Part shown: positions 9,198 through 25,745 of the stretch, in pieces | Numbering within the stretch: position 1 is the first letter of the stretch | Layout of the letters: the number at the start of each line of letters is the position of its first letter | Source of the DNA: a virus | Length of the DNA stretch: 25,745 bases | Strand: one strand, 5' to 3' | Virus record (IMG/VR): IMGVR_UViG_3300024985_000073 | Location: 1 to 25,745 of that record | Program-made: the position numbers and the translations under genes | Notes under the pieces: generated by a model | The model's database searches: none | The model's input: the letters and a program-made list of their open reading frames with translations, nothing else | What the model was told of the DNA's origin: nothing

Positions 9198-9671
9198 ATG
9201 CAACATAGAAATAGACAATCCGAGTTTGATAGAAAACGCTTTTACACCTTGCTGAGAGTAGGCAAGGAACAGTTGCAATGGGATGACGAGTTTTACTATG
9301 GCATCTGGCTGCCTACCATGGGCGCGTCGCTGCTCAACGGCCGATACTCGGCCACTTCCTTATCCAATAGACAGCTCTTTATCGCCGTTGAGAATATGAA
9401 AAGCAAGGGCTTTAAGGTTGCGTACAAATCGGGCAATAAAAAAGAGGCCGTGCCGGCAGTGCCAAATCGTAAACTGGCCGATGATGCCCAGTCTAAAAAA
9501 ATCCGTGCGTTGTGGCTGGAGCTGCACAATGCCGGCAAGGTGCGCAATCCTGCCGAAGAAAGTTTGGCGGCTTACGTGAAACGCGCAACCAAGATCGATG
9601 CCCTGCAATGGCTCAGCACGGAACAAGCCAGCGCCATTATCGAACAGCTGAAAAAATGGCTGGCACGCTAA
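9198..9671 (+). CDS. gemA: GemA-like regulatory protein (Mu gp16 family, DUF1018)
   Basis: The protein has 157 residues. The N-terminal RKRFYTLLRVGKEQLQWDDE, the central KIRALWLELHNAGKVRNPAE and the C-terminal AYVKRATKIDALQWLSTEQA followed by IIEQLKKWL are typical of the GemA/gp16 family. In Mu, GemA (E16) affects host gene expression and DNA supercoiling and lies directly upstream of mor, as it does here apart from a 44-residue ORF. The ribosome binding site is weak (AATGAG). The stop overlaps the next ATG (TAATG). Confidence 0.88.
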   Translation: MQHRNRQSEFDRKRFYTLLRVGKEQLQWDDEFYYGIWLPTMGASLLNGRYSATSLSNRQLFIAVENMKSKGFKVAYKSGNKKEAVPAVPNRKLADDAQSKKIRALWLELHNAGKVRNPAEESLAAYVKRATKIDALQWLSTEQASAIIEQLKKWLAR

Positions 9672-9805
9672 TGCAGAAGTTGCGCAGATATTTTCGTCGT
9701 TGGTATTGGCGACACAGATTTAAGCGATTGGAACCAGCTACACAGCAGTTAGCAATTCTTCTTAAAATTGATCCTGACAGTCTTATAGATCGTGGCTTTT
9801 TATGA
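9671..9805 (+). CDS. Small basic ORF between gemA and mor
   Basis: A 44-residue ORF is coupled on both sides (TAATG with gemA, ATGA with mor). The N-terminus is aromatic and very basic (LRRYFRRWYWRHRFKRLEP), and the C-terminus (LAILLKIDPDSLIDRGFL) is a short helix. The tight coupling makes it credible. It may bind nucleic acid or membrane, or may only link translation of gemA and mor. No family is recognised. Confidence 0.5.
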   Translation: MQKLRRYFRRWYWRHRFKRLEPATQQLAILLKIDPDSLIDRGFL

Positions 9806-10191
9806 GCGAACTACCCAAGCACCTGTTGCCTGCCAGCCTGCTGCAGATCGCTGAATACTGCGGCGAGACCACGATGTGGGCAATCTGGAGCGCATACGGC
9901 GGCGGCCATTTATCGGTGCCGATGCAGGTATCCCCGGACCATGCGCTTAGCCAGTTACTGGGGTACGTTGCTGCGTGCAAATTCTGCCAGGCCTTTGGCG
10001 GCGAGCTGCTGTCAATCCCCAAAGCGGAAGCGGCAAAACGGGCGGTCAGGAATGTCCGGATTCGTCAGGAGCGGTTAGAAGGCCAGGACAATTTTAGCCT
10101 GTGCCGGAAATACGGCCTCACGGAGCGGCAAATCATCACGATTTGCCAGGCCGATGAGGTGCCTGTGCTGAATATGGACTTGTTTGATTAA
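9802..10191 (+). CDS. mor: Mor-family transcription activator
   Basis: This 129-residue protein is the size of Mu Mor. Its first 70 residues form the dimerisation region (LPASLLQIAEYCGETTMWAI and YGGGHLSVPMQV). Residues about 97-116 (NFSLCRKYGLTERQIITICQ) are the C-terminal helix-turn-helix. Mor/C proteins activate middle or late phage promoters that lack a good -35 box. In Mu the next genes are C, lysis and terminase. Here only a lipoprotein gene and repeats lie between mor and the protease gene. Confidence 0.88.
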   Translation: MSELPKHLLPASLLQIAEYCGETTMWAIWSAYGGGHLSVPMQVSPDHALSQLLGYVAACKFCQAFGGELLSIPKAEAAKRAVRNVRIRQERLEGQDNFSLCRKYGLTERQIITICQADEVPVLNMDLFD

Positions 10192-10317
10192 AATTGCGAT
10201 TTAAGGCATTTTTTTTAGCTTGCCTTGTCTGTGTAGCCAAAAGCCAATAGACCCCGTTTATAAAGTTTATGCGTTGCGAGAATGGGCGTTATTGAAGGCA
10301 TGTCTGCCCTGCTTGAC

Positions 10318-10323
10318 TATAAT
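10318..10323 (+). promoter_or_regulatory. Candidate promoter (-10 box) for the lipoprotein gene
   Basis: A perfect TATAAT lies about 40 bases before the lipoprotein ATG. No -35 box is found at normal spacing; TTGAAG at 10292-10297 is 20 bases away. An alternative reading uses TTGACT (10313-10318) with TATTTT (10337-10342), 18 bases apart. A strong -10 without a -35, just after mor, could mean an activator-dependent promoter. This is a tentative call. Confidence 0.35.
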
Positions 10324-10361
10324 AAGCGGGATATTTTATTTTAACCTTGATGGAGAACGCT

Positions 10362-10703
10362 ATGAAAAACAAAATCATCATTGCGGCATTATGTGTTTTG
10401 ATGGGTGGATGTACAAACAGCAAATACCCAAATTGGCAATATGTCAGGATTGAGCCGCAGGTCCCGGATAAAAAATGTGTTTACAAAATGCAAGAGCCTT
10501 GCAGTTTAAGAACTAATGCCTGCCTGAACTGGCATAAACAGAGAGCGACAACATTCGGCGCTGATACTGTCGTAATAACCCAGGCTGAAGCGCTCACAGT
10601 CGCATCAACAGGTTTCACGGGATATAAAGCCAGCGAAAACAGCAGCACCATTGCCGATTACTATTATTGCAATGGACCTAAAAATTTAAAGCCCAAAGAC
10701 TAA
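10362..10703 (+). CDS. Small lipoprotein (DUF4156-like)
   Basis: The protein has 113 residues from the ATG at 10362, which has GGAG 7 bases upstream. A lipoprotein signal peptide is present: MKNK, a hydrophobic stretch IIIAALCVLM, and GGC with the lipidated Cys at residue 17. The mature part has three more cysteines before residue 55 and one near the end, and the segment KQRATTFGADTVVITQAEAL, which resembles the DUF4156/RcsF-like group of outer-membrane lipoproteins. It is not proline-rich like phage Rz1. It has its own upstream gap, so it is probably a cargo gene that alters the lysogen's envelope rather than a lytic gene. Function unknown. Confidence 0.7.
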   Translation: MKNKIIIAALCVLMGGCTNSKYPNWQYVRIEPQVPDKKCVYKMQEPCSLRTNACLNWHKQRATTFGADTVVITQAEALTVASTGFTGYKASENSSTIADYYYCNGPKNLKPKD

Positions 10704-10732
10704 ACATTAGATTTGAAAGCCTATAGTGCGTA

Positions 10733-10805
10733 GGTTGGGTTAGCGCTAGCGTAACCCAACATTGGCCGCTTCGGTGTGCTGGGTTACGGCTATCGCCTAA
10801 CCCAA
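10733..10805. repeat. Head-to-head pair of REP-like elements (right pair, inverted copy)
   Basis: Unit one (10733-10761) is GGTTGGGTTAGCGCTAGC plus GTAACCCAACA, whose first 27 bases are the exact reverse complement of 48-74. Unit two (10780-10805) is TGGGTTACGGCTATCGCC plus TAACCCAA. The spacer holds TTCGGTGTG, the complement of CACACCGAA in the left spacer. The whole pair is therefore an inverted relative of 1-74. It separates the lipoprotein gene from the morphogenesis genes. Confidence 0.75.
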
Positions 10806-10856
10806 TTTACGGGCTAGTTACAAAAACATGATTTATGTAGTAGAGTAACCACACCT

Positions 10857-10886
10857 GACCATTGCGAGGACCTCCTCGCAATGGTC
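10857..10886. repeat. Perfect 14-bp-arm inverted repeat upstream of the protease gene
   Basis: The arms GACCATTGCGAGGA and TCCTCGCAATGGTC are separated by CC. As RNA it would be a very stable hairpin. It is followed by CTCCTCCTGCC rather than a T run, so it is not a standard intrinsic terminator. It could be an operator, a transcript-processing site, or the trace of an insertion. Confidence 0.7.
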
Positions 10887-10957
10887 CTCCTCCTGCCAGA
10901 CCCATTCCGAAGCGTTTCATAATCCCCCTTGCCTCATGACTGCCTATCATTCAGCCC

Positions 10958-12022
10958 ATGAGCAAAAACAAATCCCTGACTATTGCCTTATCCGCGCAGC
11001 TTATCGAGCTGGGCGGCACTGCGCCCACTGAAATCAAGCTGTTGCCCGCCGGCCGGTTCAAGGCTAAGGACGGTCGCCCGCAAGGCTTGCCGGGCTGGAC
11101 CATGAACGATGTAGGCGCCGCCGCCATCCTGACAGCCGCAGGCAAGCAGACGGATAAATACCTGATCGACTACGAGCACCAGACCCTGCACAGCAAGGCC
11201 AATGGCAAGCCGGCGCCCGCGGCGGGATGGTTCGGCGAACTGGAATGGCGTGCCGGCAACGGCCTGTATGCCACCGACGTGCAATGGACAGCGGCGGCCC
11301 AGACCTCAATAGAGGCCAGAGAGTACCGCTACATCAGCCCCGTTTTAACCTATAACCCGAATACCGGCGACGTGACCGGCCTGCTGATGGCGGCACTAGT
11401 CAACTATCCCGCGCTCGACGGACTGAATGATCTGGCGGCTGCGCATTTTAACTTTTACCAACCCACCAGCGAGAACACGATGAATAAAGAGCATCTAGCC
11501 GCCTTAGGTCTCCAGGAGGGCGCAGACGATGGCGCCGTTCTGTCCGCCATTAATACACTTAAAGAACAAGCGGCTCAGGTCGCCGCGCTATCGGCGCAGA
11601 TCGAAGCGCTGAAAGCGCCTGACCCCATCCGGTTTGTGCCGGTTGCCGTTGTGGCTGAGCTGCAAACCCAGCTGGCCGCATTGTCCACGAAAGTGGCAGC
11701 GTCCGAGATCGATGACTTGATCAAGAGCAATTTAACCAGGCTGCCGACGCCCGGGTTGCAGGCGTGGGCTAAAAGCCAAACGGTCGAAGCGTTATCCGCT
11801 TATCTCGCCAATGCGCCAGAAGTGCCGGCGTTAGCGGGGATGCAAACGGACGGCAAAGCCCCTGGCGCAACCGATCAGGATCCCATCACCGACGAAACCG
11901 CGCATAAGGCCAGCTGGAACGCCAACGCGGAACTGCGCGCCGAGTTCGGCGATTTTGAAACTTATGCCGCTTTCGCCAAGGCAGACGCCGGCGGTCTGGT
12001 AAAAATCAAAGGAGATAAATAA
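10958..12022 (+). CDS. Mu I-like head maturation protease
   Basis: The protein has 354 residues. The N-terminal 160 residues match the Mu gpI protease family: EIKLLPAGRFKAKDGRP, then the conserved YLIDYEHQTLHSKANGKPAP, AAGWFGELEW, and REYRYISPVLTYNPNTGDVT. The C-terminal half is helical (LKEQAAQVAALSAQIEALKA) and ends with an acidic tail, as expected for a scaffold domain that the protease removes during head maturation. It has no clear SD at its start. It is normally preceded by terminase, portal and F genes, which are missing here. The decoration protein follows with a one-base overlap (TAATG). Confidence 0.88.
   Translation: MSKNKSLTIALSAQLIELGGTAPTEIKLLPAGRFKAKDGRPQGLPGWTMNDVGAAAILTAAGKQTDKYLIDYEHQTLHSKANGKPAPAAGWFGELEWRAGNGLYATDVQWTAAAQTSIEAREYRYISPVLTYNPNTGDVTGLLMAALVNYPALDGLNDLAAAHFNFYQPTSENTMNKEHLAALGLQEGADDGAVLSAINTLKEQAAQVAALSAQIEALKAPDPIRFVPVAVVAELQTQLAALSTKVAASEIDDLIKSNLTRLPTPGLQAWAKSQTVEALSAYLANAPEVPALAGMQTDGKAPGATDQDPITDETAHKASWNANAELRAEFGDFETYAAFAKADAGGLVKIKGDK
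11480..12022 (+). CDS. Probable internal-start scaffold protein (Mu Z-like) within the protease gene
   Basis: An in-frame ATG at codon 175 (MNKEHLAALGLQEG) begins the helical C-terminal half. It is preceded by GAGAACACG, a possible ribosome binding site. In Mu the scaffold Z is made from an in-frame start inside gene I, and the domain boundary here falls exactly at this Met. The product would be 180 residues. This is inferred from the Mu parallel. Confidence 0.5.
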   Translation: MNKEHLAALGLQEGADDGAVLSAINTLKEQAAQVAALSAQIEALKAPDPIRFVPVAVVAELQTQLAALSTKVAASEIDDLIKSNLTRLPTPGLQAWAKSQTVEALSAYLANAPEVPALAGMQTDGKAPGATDQDPITDETAHKASWNANAELRAEFGDFETYAAFAKADAGGLVKIKGDK

Positions 12023-18497: not shown

Positions 18498-18586
18498 TCA
18501 TCTACTCCACACCCTTATGCGAATATGACACTGCGCGACCAGGACGAATATAGTAAAATGTGCATCGCAACGGCCGGGAATTGATC

Positions 18587-19009
18587 ATGCTGCTGGCGCC
18601 TATCATTACCCATATCTCCACACAAATGCCGACGCTCAGGCAGGTAACAGCCGCCAGCTCTGTGCCTTTGGCTGTGCAATCGCTTAAAACGTTCCCGTCC
18701 GCCTGCCTGTTGATGCCAAGAGGCATGGCGGGGAAAAACACCCTGATTAATGCGATTGACCATAATGTTGAAGATCATTTCTCGGTCATTCTGGCGGTGC
18801 GCAATGTCAAGGATATGGCAGGATTCGCCGCAGCTGAAGACATGGATGCTTTGCGACCGGTTTTGATCGCGGCTTTGCTTAACTGGGTTCCGGCGACCGG
18901 CCACGATCCGCTGGAGTATGTCGGCCACCAGCTGGTACACTACCAGGACGGCTTAATGCTTTGGGCCGACCATTTCGCCACCCGCCATCACGTGCGCTCT
19001 ACTCTGTAA
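18587..19009 (+). CDS. Tail terminator-like protein
   Basis: The protein has 140 residues from the ATG at 18587; a GTG at 18560 would add nine residues with no better ribosome binding site. Its opening MLLAPIITHISTQMPTLRQV and middle DHFSVILAVRNVKDMAGFAA, plus NWVPATGHDPLEYVGHQLVH, fit phage tail terminators, which cap the tail tube and join it to the head. Position directly before the tail tube gene agrees. A weak promoter-like pair (ATGACA at 18525, TATAGT at 18549) lies in the 89-base gap upstream. Confidence 0.65.
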   Translation: MLLAPIITHISTQMPTLRQVTAASSVPLAVQSLKTFPSACLLMPRGMAGKNTLINAIDHNVEDHFSVILAVRNVKDMAGFAAAEDMDALRPVLIAALLNWVPATGHDPLEYVGHQLVHYQDGLMLWADHFATRHHVRSTL

Positions 19010-19059: not shown

Positions 19060-19251
19060 ATGCTGTCAGCAACATTTAATTTGTCTGCTGAACAGGTAAT
19101 TACCATGCAAGACCAGTATACCGGCCAGGCCGGAACCTTCGTAGTCGATCCCGAACAGGGCATCCGAATCCCCATCGAACAATATGAGGCTGAGCAGGCA
19201 GCAAAAAATGCCAAAAAACCAGCCAAACCCACAGCAGAGGCTGAGCAATAA
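19060..19251 (+). CDS. Small tail-module protein
   Basis: This 63-residue protein has an AAAGG ribosome binding site. Its N-terminal half is beta-like (QYTGQAGTFVVDPEQGIRIP) and its tail is rich in Ala, Lys and Pro. The stop overlaps the tail tube ATG (TAATG). Small genes of this type precede tail tube genes in several siphophages; function unknown. Confidence 0.6.
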   Translation: MLSATFNLSAEQVITMQDQYTGQAGTFVVDPEQGIRIPIEQYEAEQAAKNAKKPAKPTAEAEQ

Positions 19252-20429
19252 TGTCATTAGCGCAACGCAAACGAGTCATTCTCGTTAAACTGGAATCCAC
19301 CTATGGCACGGACTCAACCCCCGTTGCCGCTGATGCGGTATTGTGTTCCGGGTTGGATATTACCCCGCTCGAAGGCTCATCTGTCGAACGCGATTTTATC
19401 AGGCCCTATTTCGGCGGTTCCGGATCAATTCGCGTTGAGAATTACGCGTCTCTTTCCTTTGAAACCGAAATAGCCGGCTCCGGCGCGGCAGCAACGCCGC
19501 CGGAATGGGGTCTGCTACTTAAGGCGTGCAACTTTAGCGAGACCATTACCGCTGCACCCATTACCGGGGCTTGTGGCACCGGCAGCACAACCACCTCTAT
19601 CGTTTTGGCGGCTGGCGCTTCGGCAGTCGATGATTTTTACACCGGCATGACCATTGTGTTTGATGGCGCAGGTGGTGCCCAGCAGGGTGAAATTATCGCT
19701 TATGTAGGGTCTTCAAAAACCGCTACATTGGCCAAACCGATTACCACGGCTCCGACAGCAACATCAACGACTTACACGATTGGCGCCAACGTCATGTATT
19801 TGCCCAATAGTGACTTTGGCACGGCGGTGGCCAGTACCTCGGCAACCATTTATTTTAATATTGATGGCGTGCGGCACGTATTGCTCGGCGCAAAAGGCAA
19901 TCCAAGTTTTGACTTGACGGCTAAAGCTATCCCCAAAATGAAATGGAAATTCACCGGCTTGCTGGGCACTATCTCGGATCAAACGCTGCCAACCGCCGAC
20001 TTTACCGGCTGGCAAACGCCAGTTACAGTCAGCACGGCCAATACCACTGATATTAACTTGCTGGGCTATAACGGCGCAGCGATTCAAACGCTTAATTTTG
20101 ATATGGCCAACAGCGTTATTTATCGGCAGTTGATCGGTTATGAATCGGTGCTGATTACCGATCGCAAGCCGGCGGGTAATATCAGTCTGGAAGCTACCAC
20201 GGTAACCGCTAAAGACTGGTGGACTATCGCTAAAGATGCAACAACCGGGCCGTTCTGCGTTAAGCATGGCCAGACCGCCGGTAACACCGTTGGCTTTACT
20301 TCACGCAAAGCCCAGTTGGCCGATCCAAAATACTCGGACTCTGACGGTGTGGCGATGATGGATTTCAGCTTGATGTTTATCCCGTATGCCGCAGCCGGCA
20401 ACGACGACATCCGTATTTGCAGCAAATAA
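19251..20429 (+). CDS. Phage tail tube (major tail) protein with an inserted beta domain
   Basis: The protein has 392 residues. It starts RKRVILVKLESTYGTDSTPV, the usual opening of siphophage tail tube proteins, and continues with IRPYFGGSGSIRVENYASLS and ETEIAGSGAAATPPEWGLLL. Residues about 103-178 (IVLAAGASAVDDFYTGMTIV, then GEIIAYVGSSKTATLAKPIT) form an inserted Ig-like domain common in larger tail tube proteins, probably exposed on the tail surface. There is no sheath gene next to it, so the tail should be non-contractile. The end carries VAMMDFSLMF. Confidence 0.8.
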   Translation: MSLAQRKRVILVKLESTYGTDSTPVAADAVLCSGLDITPLEGSSVERDFIRPYFGGSGSIRVENYASLSFETEIAGSGAAATPPEWGLLLKACNFSETITAAPITGACGTGSTTTSIVLAAGASAVDDFYTGMTIVFDGAGGAQQGEIIAYVGSSKTATLAKPITTAPTATSTTYTIGANVMYLPNSDFGTAVASTSATIYFNIDGVRHVLLGAKGNPSFDLTAKAIPKMKWKFTGLLGTISDQTLPTADFTGWQTPVTVSTANTTDINLLGYNGAAIQTLNFDMANSVIYRQLIGYESVLITDRKPAGNISLEATTVTAKDWWTIAKDATTGPFCVKHGQTAGNTVGFTSRKAQLADPKYSDSDGVAMMDFSLMFIPYAAAGNDDIRICSK

Positions 20430-20483: not shown

Positions 20484-20831
20484 ATGGCATTCATCCTCAA
20501 AAAAGACAAAAGCTACACCTGGCCGATCACCATCTCTGAGCCCGTAGACGGCGGCGGCTTTAATGATCAAAAAGTTCGCGTCAAGTTCAAGATGCTGAAG
20601 CAGTCTCGGATCGATGAAATCATCAAAAATGAGGCTGAGGAAGACGCTGACATTTTGCACGATGTACTGATTGGATGGGACGAGGAAGCATTCAAGGACG
20701 AGGCAGGCGCAAGCATTCCGTTCAACGAAGATAACAAAGACCTGGTTCTTTCGGTACCGTTTGTCCGCAGCGCTTTGGTCAAAGGCTTTTTTGAATCGAT
20801 TGCCGGCAAAGCGCTGAAACGAAAAAACTGA
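20484..20831 (+). CDS. Tail assembly chaperone, short form (G-like)
   Basis: This 115-residue protein has an AGGGAA ribosome binding site. Its body (VRVKFKMLKQSRIDEIIKNE, then HDVLIGWDEEAFKDEAGASI and FVRSALVKGFFESIAGKALK) fits the short tail chaperones of siphophages that bind the tape measure protein during tail assembly. It ends KRKN at a TGA placed directly after the slippery heptamer A_AAA_AAC, so a fraction of ribosomes should continue in the -1 frame to make the longer G-T form. Confidence 0.85.
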   Translation: MAFILKKDKSYTWPITISEPVDGGGFNDQKVRVKFKMLKQSRIDEIIKNEAEEDADILHDVLIGWDEEAFKDEAGASIPFNEDNKDLVLSVPFVRSALVKGFFESIAGKALKRKN

Positions 20832-21178
20832 TAGAGGCGGCTGAATACTATTGTAATCAGCCGTCAGACAGCAATACCGATCAGCTGGACGAGGATGCCG
20901 CGATATTGGGCATCCAACTCCCAGAGCTTGAAGAGCAGGAAGAACAGCATTTCGAGGTTTTCAAATGCAATGCCCCGGTTCTTGAAGCTTTTTTTATACT
21001 CGACGGCTGCGCCTGGCAATACACGGGCATGGGCGATTTAATCGGCCTGGATTACCAGGCCGCGCAGGTGATATGGGGTTATGCTGGCATGGCCATTGAT
21101 GCAGAGGTCTTTCGTGGCGTGATGTTGTTTTCAAGAACTATTGTTGATGAGCTGAACAAGAAGAGGAAGAAGAAGTGA
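20484..21178 (+). CDS. Tail assembly chaperone, frameshifted long form (G-T, DUF1799-like T part)
   Basis: The product would be join(20484..20828,20828..21178), 231 residues. The -1 frame is open from 20795 through 21178 with no ATG near its beginning (only a TTG at 20906), so it needs frameshifting to be translated. The T part begins LIEAAEYYCNQPSDSNTDQL and includes FEVFKCNAPVLEAFFILDGC and GDLIGLDYQAAQVIWGYAGM, which resembles DUF1799, the usual second ORF at this position. G-T proteins help fold and load the tape measure protein, whose GTG start overlaps the G-T stop (GTGA). Confidence 0.85.
20822..20865 (+). promoter_or_regulatory. Programmed -1 ribosomal frameshift signal
   Basis: The slippery heptamer A_AAA_AAC (20822-20828) is in the correct register of the chaperone frame (CGA AAA AAC TGA). 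Seven bases later a stem of 9 pairs including one G-U forms between GGCGGCTGA (20836-20844) and TCAGCCGTC (20857-20865) with a 12-base loop. A zero-frame stop right after the heptamer, ideal spacer length and an open -1 frame make this a textbook signal. Confidence 0.9.
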
Positions 21179-24100
21179 GCAACTCCGACATCAGACTTGG
21201 CATTACCATTCGCGCCGATGGCAGCGGCCAGGTTACGGGTGAGCTGAACCGTATTCGCAATGGCCTGGGCGAGACCGGCGCAGCGGTACAAGCGTCAAAC
21301 CGGCAATTTGCCGAAATGGCGTCCACTCTGAGCAAGTTCGGTGCGCTGTTGGGCGGCATTACGTTTGCAGCTCTTGCGCGCGACATACTGAGTGTCAATC
21401 GTGAAATGGAAACTTTACGGGCAACCCTGAAAGCGGTGACAGGCTCTGCTGCTGGCGGTGCTTCGGCATTTGCCTTTATTCAAGACTTTGCCAAAAATAC
21501 ACCTTATGAAGTGCAGGGGCTGACACAAACCTTCATCAAACTGAAAGGCATGGGACTAGAGCCCACGCGCCAGGTGATGGAGGCATTGACCAACCAGGCC
21601 TCAAAGCTGGGTGGCTCACAAGAAACACTATCCGCAATTGCTTTGCAGCTGGGGCAGGCTTATTCAAAAATGAAGCTTCAGCAGGAGGACTTGGTTGTCT
21701 TGGCTGAGCGAGGCATTCCAATTTATGACCTGTTGGCACAGGTTACGCACAAAAACGGCGAAGAGCTGACCGACCTGATCAGTAAAGGCCAGATTACCCG
21801 TGATGTCATTGATCAATTAATTATAAAAATGGGCGAGCTGGCTAGCGGTTCCAATGCGCAGGCCATGGATACACTTAACGGCGCAATCAGCAACCTGTCT
21901 GATGCCTGGCATCAATTTGAGGATACGCTATTAAATGATCAATCAGAAAGCCTTATAAGATCGATTGTCACCGGCATAACCGAATCCATCAATGCGCTGA
22001 CCAACGCGTTTGGCTCCAGCATCGATAATCAAATTGAAACTCTGAAAAACATGGCTATTACCAAGCAGGCTTTTTTGGGCCAGTTTGGCATTGAGGTCGA
22101 TACTTCATCGACCGACAAGCTGGTGCAATCCCTGGAAGCGCAAAGAAACGCCGCCGCTGAAGAGGAGCAAATCCGGACAGCCAGCGCCCGTGCTATTGCC
22201 GATACCGAAAACTGGCTGGCAGAAATCACCGATAAAAGCACCAAAAAACAGATAGCCAGCCATTCAGCAAGATCGGCTTCCGTATCGGCTGCGCAACAAG
22301 TGCTTAATGCAGCTACCGCAGAAGCCAAAAGAAACTACGATCAGGCGATAAAATCATCAGCCGACTACATAAAGCGGCTCCGGGCTGAGACCGCGCAAAT
22401 CGGCATGAACGCTACCCAGCGCGCGGACTTTGCTGCGGAACAGATTGCGCAGGCAATGGATGACGCTAAAGTCAGAAGCGGCCTTCAGGTTGAGTTTTTG
22501 ACGCAGGCGCATGAACTGGCGATAGCGCTTGAGAAAGTAAAAGAAGCTGAAAAAATCGATGCAGCGGTTAAAACCGAAATGGAAGCCTTGATTGACCGCT
22601 ACCAGCAACTGACTTTGTCCGCCGAAGAATATTATGCCGCCAAGCTGAAGGCTCAGGGCATGAGTGCTGAACAAGCCGCGCCATTGATCAAGCAAAACGC
22701 TATCAATAATGATCTGGAAAAGCAGGCGGAAGCGGCTGACGCGGCGCGTGAAGCCGTGCAAAGCTATGTGGATTCCATTGATTCAGCATCCGAGAGTATG
22801 CAAGGCCTGGGCGATGTCATCGGGGCGATATTTGATAGCTCCTTGGGCGGCGTAAATAGATTGGTGGGCGCACTTGAGCACATGGGCAAAGGCATAGCTA
22901 ATTCACAGAATGAATTTAATCTTTTGGCGGCCCAAAAGAAAGAAATTGATGCGCTGCCTGTGAGCAAGAAAGGCACGGAAAATTACCTAAAAGAGCTTAA
23001 GCTGAAATCAACTGCCGAAAAGAAATATGAAGAAGACTATCAAAAACTACAAGAAAAAACGCTAAACCAGCAATTGGATGGACTGGTTTTGATTTCCGGC
23101 GCAACAGAGGGCTTATTTGAGCAAAGCTCTGCCGGTGCTATTGCCATGAAAGCAGTAACACTGACGTTGTTGACTGTACAGGCAGCGTTAGCCATTGCTA
23201 CCGCAGCAAGCGGCGGTGATGGTTATTCAGCCTTTGCCAGACTTGCAGCGATGGCTGCCGCGATGGCAGCATTAATTGCATCAGTAGGCGGTGGAGGATC
23301 GGCAAAAACCCCTCCACCACCACCGCAATCAGCCGACACCGGCACGGTTTTGGGCGACTCCAAGGCGCAATCAAAGTCACTGGGCAATGTAATGGAGCTG
23401 CTGGAGGACATACATGCCGACGAATACGCTGAGCTGCGAGGCATTAATGAGGGTGTTGCTAAATTGTCCGGCGGTATTACTAACGTGATCACCAAGGCTT
23501 TTCAGACAGGCTACCTCACCGGCACCGACCCCGGCCCAAACCTGGGCAAAAGCAAGCACGAAATTGTCGGCGGCGGTATGTTGATCGATTCGGTCAATGT
23601 CGGTGACATCCTCAATGGTGTAGCTGAAATATTCGGTAGAATGTACACCACCGATATGGCCCGCAATAAAAAAGGCACCAAATTTACTTTCTCGGATACG
23701 TTTTCACCGATGACCGACGAAGTTACCCTGGCCATCTCCGATGTCTTCAATAGCATCGGTTCGACCATGTTTGAAGTAACCAAGACCCTGGGACAACAAA
23801 TCGGCATGGACTTTTCAGAGCAGCTCAGCGCCTATATTATCCCGGCTATTAAAATTGATTTGCTGGGAATGACTGGAGAGGAGGCGGTCAAGAAAGTCAA
23901 CGGCGTGATTTCATCCGCTATCGATACGATGGCTGGCGTAGTTTTAGGCGATATTATTGGGCAATACCAGCAGCTTGGTGAAGGGATGCTAGAGACTGCA
24001 ATCAGGCTGGTTTCAGAAATCGCTGTCGTTGGCGATGCGTTAATGAAATCGGGTCTAAAATTGGAGCCTGAAAATGTGCTTGCTTTCAGCGATGCCATTA

Positions 24101-25745
24101 TCCAGATGGCGGGCAGTATTCAAGAATTTCAAAAACAATTCTCGCAATATATTGATGCTTTTTACAGCGACAAAGAAAAGTTCAAGATGCTGGAAAAGAA
24201 TTTGTTTGGCAATGTAGCAAAGCGAACAAATCCAAAAAATATAGAAAAATATGGGGAGTATAGAAGCGATTATACGGGGCAACTTTCCGAAGTATTTGAA
24301 AATAGGCCGAACAGAATGTCAAAAATAATAGCATCAAGAAAAGGCTATCGTGATGCGCTGGAAGCTGTTGATATAAATTCCGATATCGGCATGAAGCAAT
24401 ACTCTACACTGATCAAGTTGGCACCCATGGCCGATCAATACTATTCATATATTGAGTCAAAAGAAGAAGAGCGTCTTGCGCTGGAAGAAAAGCGCCGTGA
24501 TTTAGAACTGCAATTAATGGACGCCACCGGCCAAAGCGCTGAGGCATTAGCTGAGCGCCGCAAAAAAGAACTGGAAGCCATGGATGAAAGCTTAAGGCCG
24601 CTGCAAGAGCAAATCTATCTCGCGCAAGACAATCTCATACTACAGCAAGAAGCGCAAAAACTGGCCCAGCAACAGCGCGGGCTGGACATTCAATACATGC
24701 AGGTTACCGGCAATGCCGCCGGTGCATTAGCCGCTAAACGTGAAGACGAGCTGGCCGCTATGGAAGAAAGCCTAAGACCCATGCAGCTTGCTATTTATGC
24801 CGCTGAAGACTTGTTGGTAGCACAGCAAAAAGCCGCGGAACTGGCCAAGCAGCAACGATCATTAGATATTGAATTAATGACCGCACAAGGCAACGCCGCT
24901 GGCGCTTTGGCCGCAAAAAGGGCTGACGAACTGGCGGCCATGGATGAAAGCTTAAGGGCTACGCAACAGGCTATCTATGATGCGCAAGACAGCGCGGCGG
25001 CCGCCATCGCACTGGCTGAAGCACTGAAGAAGGAACAGGAGGCAACCGAAAAAATGGCGGCCGCGGCACAATTGGCGGCTGAAAATCTTCAGGCAGTCAG
25101 CGAGATATTGGCCGTGTCCGGATTTATGTTGGGCAGCAATGCCAATGTGCTTGCCGATAGCCTGGCTACAGCAGCGGGCGGCTTGAGCGAGTTGCAATCG
25201 CAATTCAGCACCTATTTCAGCAGCTTTTATGCGGAAACCGAGCAGCAGATCATCAACGGCAACAAGCTGCAAACCGCATTAAGCGGGCTATTTGATCAAG
25301 CCACTATTGATAGGATGGCAAAATCCCGGGACGCATACCGTAGCGTATTGGAAGCGCTGGACCTAAATAATGAAGCCGATCAGCAACGCTATGTATTGCT
25401 ATTGAAGCTGGCCGGTGCTGCTAATGATTATTACACCGCAATCGAAGCTAGTGCAGCCGTCAATGCCCAGGCAATCGAAGACGCTAATCAAGCCAACGCT
25501 GACGCATTGGCCCAATATCAAGAGGATTTGGCGCAATACAATGCAGAAGTGGCGCAACAGGCAGCCGATGCAGCGGAACAGGCCGCTCAAGCGATGGCCG
25601 AAGCGATTACCAATGAGCTGCAAACCGTAGCGGACAACGCTAAAACATTTTTAGACGACGCCATTACTGCGTTGAATGATGCAGTCCAAAAAGAACGCGA
25701 TGTAATCACGGCAAAATACAATACCGATCTGGAAAAAGCCACGCT
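21175..25745 (+). CDS. Tape measure protein (3' end outside the window)
   Basis: The GTG start overlaps the G-T stop, with AGAGGAAG upstream. The frame is open for 1523 codons to the window end. Residues about 75-190 carry the tape measure N-terminal domain: RATLKAVTGSAAGGASAFAF, then FAKNTPYEVQGLTQTFIKLK and VVLAERGIPIYDLLAQ. A long coiled-coil part follows, with a hydrophobic stretch at about 655-715 followed by PPPPP. The distal part has two copies of a domain ending YRxxLEAxDxN and YY, flanking three 60-residue repeats. The protein sets tail length and spans the tail lumen; a long protein implies a long flexible tail. Confidence 0.9.
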   Translation, partial: MSNSDIRLGITIRADGSGQVTGELNRIRNGLGETGAAVQASNRQFAEMASTLSKFGALLGGITFAALARDILSVNREMETLRATLKAVTGSAAGGASAFAFIQDFAKNTPYEVQGLTQTFIKLKGMGLEPTRQVMEALTNQASKLGGSQETLSAIALQLGQAYSKMKLQQEDLVVLAERGIPIYDLLAQVTHKNGEELTDLISKGQITRDVIDQLIIKMGELASGSNAQAMDTLNGAISNLSDAWHQFEDTLLNDQSESLIRSIVTGITESINALTNAFGSSIDNQIETLKNMAITKQAFLGQFGIEVDTSSTDKLVQSLEAQRNAAAEEEQIRTASARAIADTENWLAEITDKSTKKQIASHSARSASVSAAQQVLNAATAEAKRNYDQAIKSSADYIKRLRAETAQIGMNATQRADFAAEQIAQAMDDAKVRSGLQVEFLTQAHELAIALEKVKEAEKIDAAVKTEMEALIDRYQQLTLSAEEYYAAKLKAQGMSAEQAAPLIKQNAINNDLEKQAEAADAAREAVQSYVDSIDSASESMQGLGDVIGAIFDSSLGGVNRLVGALEHMGKGIANSQNEFNLLAAQKKEIDALPVSKKGTENYLKELKLKSTAEKKYEEDYQKLQEKTLNQQLDGLVLISGATEGLFEQSSAGAIAMKAVTLTLLTVQAALAIATAASGGDGYSAFARLAAMAAAMAALIASVGGGGSAKTPPPPPQSADTGTVLGDSKAQSKSLGNVMELLEDIHADEYAELRGINEGVAKLSGGITNVITKAFQTGYLTGTDPGPNLGKSKHEIVGGGMLIDSVNVGDILNGVAEIFGRMYTTDMARNKKGTKFTFSDTFSPMTDEVTLAISDVFNSIGSTMFEVTKTLGQQIGMDFSEQLSAYIIPAIKIDLLGMTGEEAVKKVNGVISSAIDTMAGVVLGDIIGQYQQLGEGMLETAIRLVSEIAVVGDALMKSGLKLEPENVLAFSDAIIQMAGSIQEFQKQFSQYIDAFYSDKEKFKMLEKNLFGNVAKRTNPKNIEKYGEYRSDYTGQLSEVFENRPNRMSKIIASRKGYRDALEAVDINSDIGMKQYSTLIKLAPMADQYYSYIESKEEERLALEEKRRDLELQLMDATGQSAEALAERRKKELEAMDESLRPLQEQIYLAQDNLILQQEAQKLAQQQRGLDIQYMQVTGNAAGALAAKREDELAAMEESLRPMQLAIYAAEDLLVAQQKAAELAKQQRSLDIELMTAQGNAAGALAAKRADELAAMDESLRATQQAIYDAQDSAAAAIALAEALKKEQEATEKMAAAAQLAAENLQAVSEILAVSGFMLGSNANVLADSLATAAGGLSELQSQFSTYFSSFYAETEQQIINGNKLQTALSGLFDQATIDRMAKSRDAYRSVLEALDLNNEADQQRYVLLLKLAGAANDYYTAIEASAAVNAQAIEDANQANADALAQYQEDLAQYNAEVAQQAADAAEQAAQAMAEAITNELQTVADNAKTFLDDAITALNDAVQKERDVITAKYNTDLEKAT
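24493..25032 (+). repeat. Three tandem 60-residue repeats in the tape measure protein
   Basis: Units at 24493-24672, 24673-24852 and 24853-25032 are each exactly 180 bases. The shared pattern is QRxLDIxLMxxxGNAAGALA, then AKRxDELAAMDESLRxxQxA and IYxAxD. The second and third units are closest to each other. The units are helical and amphipathic. Changes in their number would alter tail length. Confidence 0.85.

Follow-up and report, generated by a model that had tools for sequence, protein, structure and literature searches.

The closest described system to the locus presented here is the G/G-T tail chaperone frameshift of phage lambda (Levin 1993; Xu, Hendrix and Duda 2004, both as cited in PMC5009743). 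In lambda-type chaperone loci two overlapping frames lie between the major tail protein and tape measure genes, a slippery heptamer is located inside the overlap in the phase of the first frame, the second frame shows constraint from the shift site onwards and no start that is conserved, and a downstream RNA structure is common, albeit not obligatory; all four features were found in the virus DNA analysed here. The zero-frame stop follows the heptamer at 15 nt in lambda and at 18 nt in P2, and does not abut it in HK97 either; for two phage sets, PRFect gives heptamer-stop distances averaging 26 and 36 nt (PMC10885494). A different layout has been described for Burkholderia phage KL1 (PMC3483164) and Acinetobacter phage Loki (PMC5313236), where a GGGAAAC or AAAAAAC heptamer is predicted immediately before the stop codon of the upstream chaperone gene.

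The window (the whole stretch of 25,745 nucleotides, IMG/VR record IMGVR_UViG_3300024985_000073) contains such a junction (Table 1). Direct reading of the zero-frame end of G gives CGA AAA AAC TGA (20820-20831), so that the A_AAA_AAC, the abutting TGA and the stem of nine pairs with one G-U are all present where a first-pass annotation of this DNA had placed them. The -1 frame is bounded by a TGA at 20792-20794 and a final TGA at 21176-21178, the latter overlapping the GTG (21175) of the tape measure ORF. In-frame X_XXY_YYZ heptamers (Y being A or T) are found at 19 of the 6659 codon positions in the genes of the window, and at that rate approximately 0.03 would be expected by chance in the 11-codon overlap of G and T; AAAAAACTGA has a single occurrence in the window. 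The signal and its phase, together with the family-wide conservation, the selected hairpin and the protein-level constraint on the -1 frame described below, point to a programmed -1 ribosomal frameshift which very probably yields two tail assembly chaperones with a shared start codon, G of 115 aa and G-T of 231 aa. The latter size, being the sum of G and the 116 aa of T read after the slip, is that given by the first-pass annotation, and its proposal of a frameshift of the lambda G/G-T type is strongly supported by the conservation and by the position between the tail tube and tape measure genes.

Table 1. Features of the chaperone locus and its neighbours (positions in the window)
Feature	Position	Strand	Basis or remark
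Tail terminator gene	18560-19009		Neighbour of G
Tail tube-like protein gene	19251-20429		phrog_290; neighbour of G
Gene G, tail assembly chaperone	20484..20831	+	Zero-frame product 115 aa, ending ...KRKN*; phrog_569 match; between tail tube gene and tape measure
-1 frame ORF with T domain	20795..21178	+	phrog_680; protein-level conservation from the slip site on
Slippery heptamer A_AAA_AAC, in phase of G	20822..20828	+	Read from sequence; same place and phase in all G homologues read
T part used after the slip	20828-21178	+	116 aa; predicted fusion G-T 231 aa
TGA stop of G, abutting the heptamer	20829..20831	+	Sequence; next in-frame codon TAG at 20832-20834
Stem-loop, candidate frameshift stimulator	20836..20865	+	Folding and synonymous recodings; 9-bp stem 20836-20844 / 20857-20865
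Tape measure protein gene	21175..25745	+	PF20155 TMP_3, E 1.4e-33; GTG start overlaps T stop (GTGA); open to window end

The genes of the window include an rve transposase, an AAA ATPase, GemA, a Mu-like protease and a Mu-like gpT capsid gene, which places it in a Mu-like transposable phage. No near DNA match to the window was present in the phage collection. G clearly matches phrog_569 (E 5.6e-19), and scores 20.6 bits (E 5e-4) against PF08748 (Phage_TAC_4), just under the curated cut-off of 21.1 bits; G is accordingly assigned by its PHROG match, without certified TAC_4 membership. Similarly, T matches phrog_680 (E 7e-11) and reaches 14.6 bits against PF08809 (DUF1799), under the curated cut-off of 26 bits. 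A search of 369 related bacterial genomes with PF08748 gave zero matches, controls included, and is thus uninformative. G is 77% identical to a homologue in a Methylobacter MAG, which points to a methanotroph host for the group. With regard to the remaining gene content, only two small ORFs lie at 9671-10958, between GemA (9198-9671) and the Mu-like protease (10958), and an ORF of large-terminase or portal size is absent among the listed ORFs before the capsid genes, its usual site in Mu-like phages; the virus may be rearranged, defective or incompletely assembled. Amid the head and tail genes there is a 500-aa protein with a polysaccharide deacetylase domain (NodB-type, PF01522; 13670-15172), and a gp80-type fibre-like protein (PF23140; 15679-16092) and a LamG-fold lectin-like protein (PF13385; 16997-18211) are encoded ahead of the tail tube gene; for proteins that may be adhesins this position is unusual.

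Homologues were collected with G as the sole query, which kept the junction out of the search. Each of the 54 non-redundant junctions obtained in this way has A_AAA_AAC directly before TGA, TAA or TAG, and in every readable junction of the G-recruited homologues, down to approximately 21-30% identity, X_XXA_AAC is followed at once by a stop codon. Among the distant homologues this is A_AAA_AAC TGA in a Comamonas plasmid and Synechococcus phage S-CBS3, A_AAA_AAC TAA in the E. coli phage TLS, and G_GGA_AAC TGA in RcapMu, RC1 and a Thioclava plasmid, and the heptamer is also directly followed by a stop in a second genome of the Methylobacter-group genus. Clustering at 70% identity gave 27 clusters, 23 with A_AAA_AAC and four with G_GGA_AAC, with an abutting stop without exception. 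Only 17 of these are G-recruited; some of the others were recruited by T, using a KKL pattern which partly presupposes the heptamer, or came from papers naming the heptamer (Loki, Colossus and phiCbK), and the unbiased claim of conservation is therefore that for the G-recruited loci. The use of both A_AAA_AAC and G_GGA_AAC indicates that slipperiness is kept rather than the run of A. The amino acid preceding the heptamer is variable (R, A, V, S, E, T), while its codon always ends in the base that the heptamer needs, and the joint chance of the A_AAA_AAC codon choices is approximately 1e-36 from local usage, before allowing for relatedness. Furthermore, the phrog_569 alignment crosses the fusion joint (residues 1-154 of the fused G-T frames), the RcapMu record carries a potential -1 frameshift at the heptamer site, and the two chaperone frames are joined in the TLS record. 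The alignment of homologues proposed in the first-pass annotation thus gave the heptamer with its abutting stop in all G-recruited junctions read; neither a conserved T start nor an unconserved heptamer, the combination which it had named as speaking against a frameshift, was found among the homologues.

Some of the homologues deserve separate mention. Shine-Dalgarno-like motifs are found approximately 11-13 nt upstream of the heptamer in L168 (RcapMu), L169 (Thioclava), L026, L028, L097, L127 and L146 (AGGAGG in RcapMu and Thioclava) and are a possible second stimulator; with such motifs in about a third of the clusters and none in the window, a conserved Shine-Dalgarno stimulator was rejected. 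For the G homologue of Synechococcus phage S-LBS1 (L022, SLBS1_A18) the record gives an ABC transporter ATPase component (FepC), apparently in error. Records of approximately 50 kb labelled Campylobacter jejuni (MG065636-MG065680) and Streptococcus phage MBBL140 (OR786094) carry the same G as the TLS-like coliphages, and their host labels may be wrong.

The first-pass annotation had called the abutting stop unusually compact, which holds in comparison with lambda, P2 and HK97, whereas within the G family it is the rule, and it has been described for KL1 and Loki. It had also suggested that such a stop may raise the frameshift rate. This is unsupported, as a stop abutting the HIV-1 site was found to lower frameshifting in bacteria and human cells and to make its rate dependent on release factor (PMC4373837). 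Still, the stop could be a working part of the signal, with the ribosome pausing with the stop in the A site, the Lys and Asn tRNAs slipping in the E and P sites, and the release factor level tuning the ratio of G to G-T. We consider this unlikely. In its favour, the stop abuts the heptamer in all members of the G chaperone family read, it lies 15-18 nt away in lambda, HK97 and P2 with their other heptamers, and in the HIV-1-site work a stop at this position was readable before slippage and the rate changed with the release factor level, although that same stop lowered frameshifting (PMC4373837). The occurrence of TGA, TAA and TAG means that no single release factor is favoured, and selection against additional residues on G, the simplest account of the abutting stop, would by itself give the same pattern; a tuning role is possible. 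An extension of this idea, somewhat more doubtful still, is that the Z=C heptamers of this chaperone family, which are weak for E. coli, depend on or are tuned by the stop that follows them; termination would then compete with slippage at a single position of the ribosome, and the ratio of G to G-T would sense release factor activity. If true, this would amount to a -1 analogue of the RF2-type arrangement. A general rule linking Z=C heptamers with an abutting stop is followed by phiCbK, Colossus, Loki and Dhillonvirus GeorgBuechner but broken by HCTV-1, and given this virus the link is claimed, from the junctions read, for this G chaperone family only. The tail chaperone of HCTV-1 (L347), an archaeal virus, has GGGAAAC with the zero-frame stop 27 nt downstream.

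In the -1 frame, which opens at 20795 without a usable early ATG, as the first-pass annotation had it, the TTG at 20906 is the sole ATG, GTG or TTG in the first 40 post-slip codons. It is preceded by a weak Shine-Dalgarno-like AGGA, and in the records of S-CBS1, S-LBS1, RcapMu and Comamonas gene callers have annotated T as a gene of its own from an internal start. T might be an independent gene whose translation starts at TTG 20906 or by coupled re-initiation, with the heptamer incidental. However, the LIEAAEYY segment between the slip site and this TTG, upstream of every start, is conserved as protein, with substitutions between slip site and TTG falling at the three codon positions of the -1 frame as 297, 278 and 531, favouring the third, and start codons are present in no more than 29% of the relatives at any column of the alignment (24% for the TTG column). 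Constraint upstream of any start, combined with the lack of a conserved start, indicates that ribosomes enter this frame by the shift. A separate start for T was rejected on these two grounds, and with heptamer and stop also invariant in the homologues we consider it very improbable.

Downstream of the heptamer, the nine-pair stem is extended by three inner pairs, and the stem-loop has an MFE of -19.3 kcal/mol (z -4.6), with none of 200 shuffles as stable. The spacer of seven bases stated in the first-pass annotation is correct when counted from the heptamer; as this includes the TGA, 4 nt remain between stop and stem. Of synonymous recodings of the -1 frame, 99.7% fold less stably than the hairpin of the window (z -3.8), and in 21 of the 27 clusters z is below -1 against recodings keeping the -1 protein (mean -1.8). 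The stem had been put forward for comparison among homologues as well. A strong hairpin at the same distance is present in 8/10 close relatives, three of which have the 3' arm shifted by one codon, whereas L010 and L025 lack a comparable one, L010 having none. Covariation of stem pairs in the close-relative alignment was not above that in shuffles, one reason being a 3-nt shift of the 3' arm in several relatives. The hairpin is thus selected beyond the need of the protein, though not universal. It also bears on transcriptional slippage, by which one A added to the six consecutive A of the heptamer would give a fusion mRNA and make ribosomal slippage superfluous. A run of six A is short for this process, the G_GGA_AAC of the distant relatives has three A only, which disfavours it as a shared mechanism, and the selected hairpin, being 3' of the run, would still be untranscribed with the polymerase on those A; this explanation, too, has very little probability. 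Stop readthrough was rejected, as the next zero-frame codon is TAG and ribosomes reading past the TGA would not enter the T frame.

For the ribosomal -1 frameshift, most ribosomes translating G would be released at the TGA that follows the AAC, with the 115-aa G as product. A smaller share would be slowed by the hairpin ahead and slip back one base on A_AAA_AAC, with the Lys and Asn tRNAs re-pairing with AAA AAA (tandem -1 slippage), and continue with CTG ATA GAG into the 231-aa G-T. We infer the slippage itself, its rate and the roles of both proteins from lambda, by analogy with which G would coat the tape measure protein and T would recruit the tail tube subunit (PMC5009743). A point against the frameshift reading is that A_AAA_AAC works with low efficiency in E. 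coli, though IS elements probably make use of it (PMC4066793); this low efficiency fits a product needed in small amounts, as lambda-type chaperones need a low rate only.

The locus is an ordinary example of the known class of frameshifted tail chaperones. What is mildly new is how strictly a divergent G family keeps to a 'eukaryote-type' Z=C heptamer abutted by a stop, and the interest lies in this strictness rather than in the single locus. In annotation, T of this phage and its relatives should be given as a joined G-T product. Bacterial data on next-codon stops at natural -1 sites seem sparse, and a large, divergent family keeping X_XXA_AAC next to a stop provides natural replicates for the effect of such stops on bacterial -1 frameshifting. 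With lambda the locus shares the order tube - G - T - tape measure, a -1 shift near the end of G and a long fusion from the first start, but lambda has G_GGA_AAG with the stop 15 nt downstream instead of A_AAA_AAC with the stop abutting, and its proteins are too dissimilar to G and T of the window for a match in the Pfam or PHROG searches used. KL1 and Loki are alike in layout, with chaperones that are not known homologues of G of the window, and differ by an extra gene before the tape measure. The Rhodobacter Mu-like phages RcapMu and RC1 have a homologous G (23% and 21%) and a heptamer abutting TGA, and in RcapMu a DUF1799 protein follows G, as T does here; they differ in having G_GGA_AAC, and RcapMu in an AGGAGG 8 nt upstream of the heptamer which is absent in the window. 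In tfmA/tfmS of phage TLS (Drexlerviridae), G is homologous (29%), A_AAA_AAC stands directly before TAA and is followed by a 3' hairpin, and the frames are joined, although TLS belongs to another phage family, has its T separated by a gap from the tape measure gene, and carries a joined annotation marked as non-experimental.
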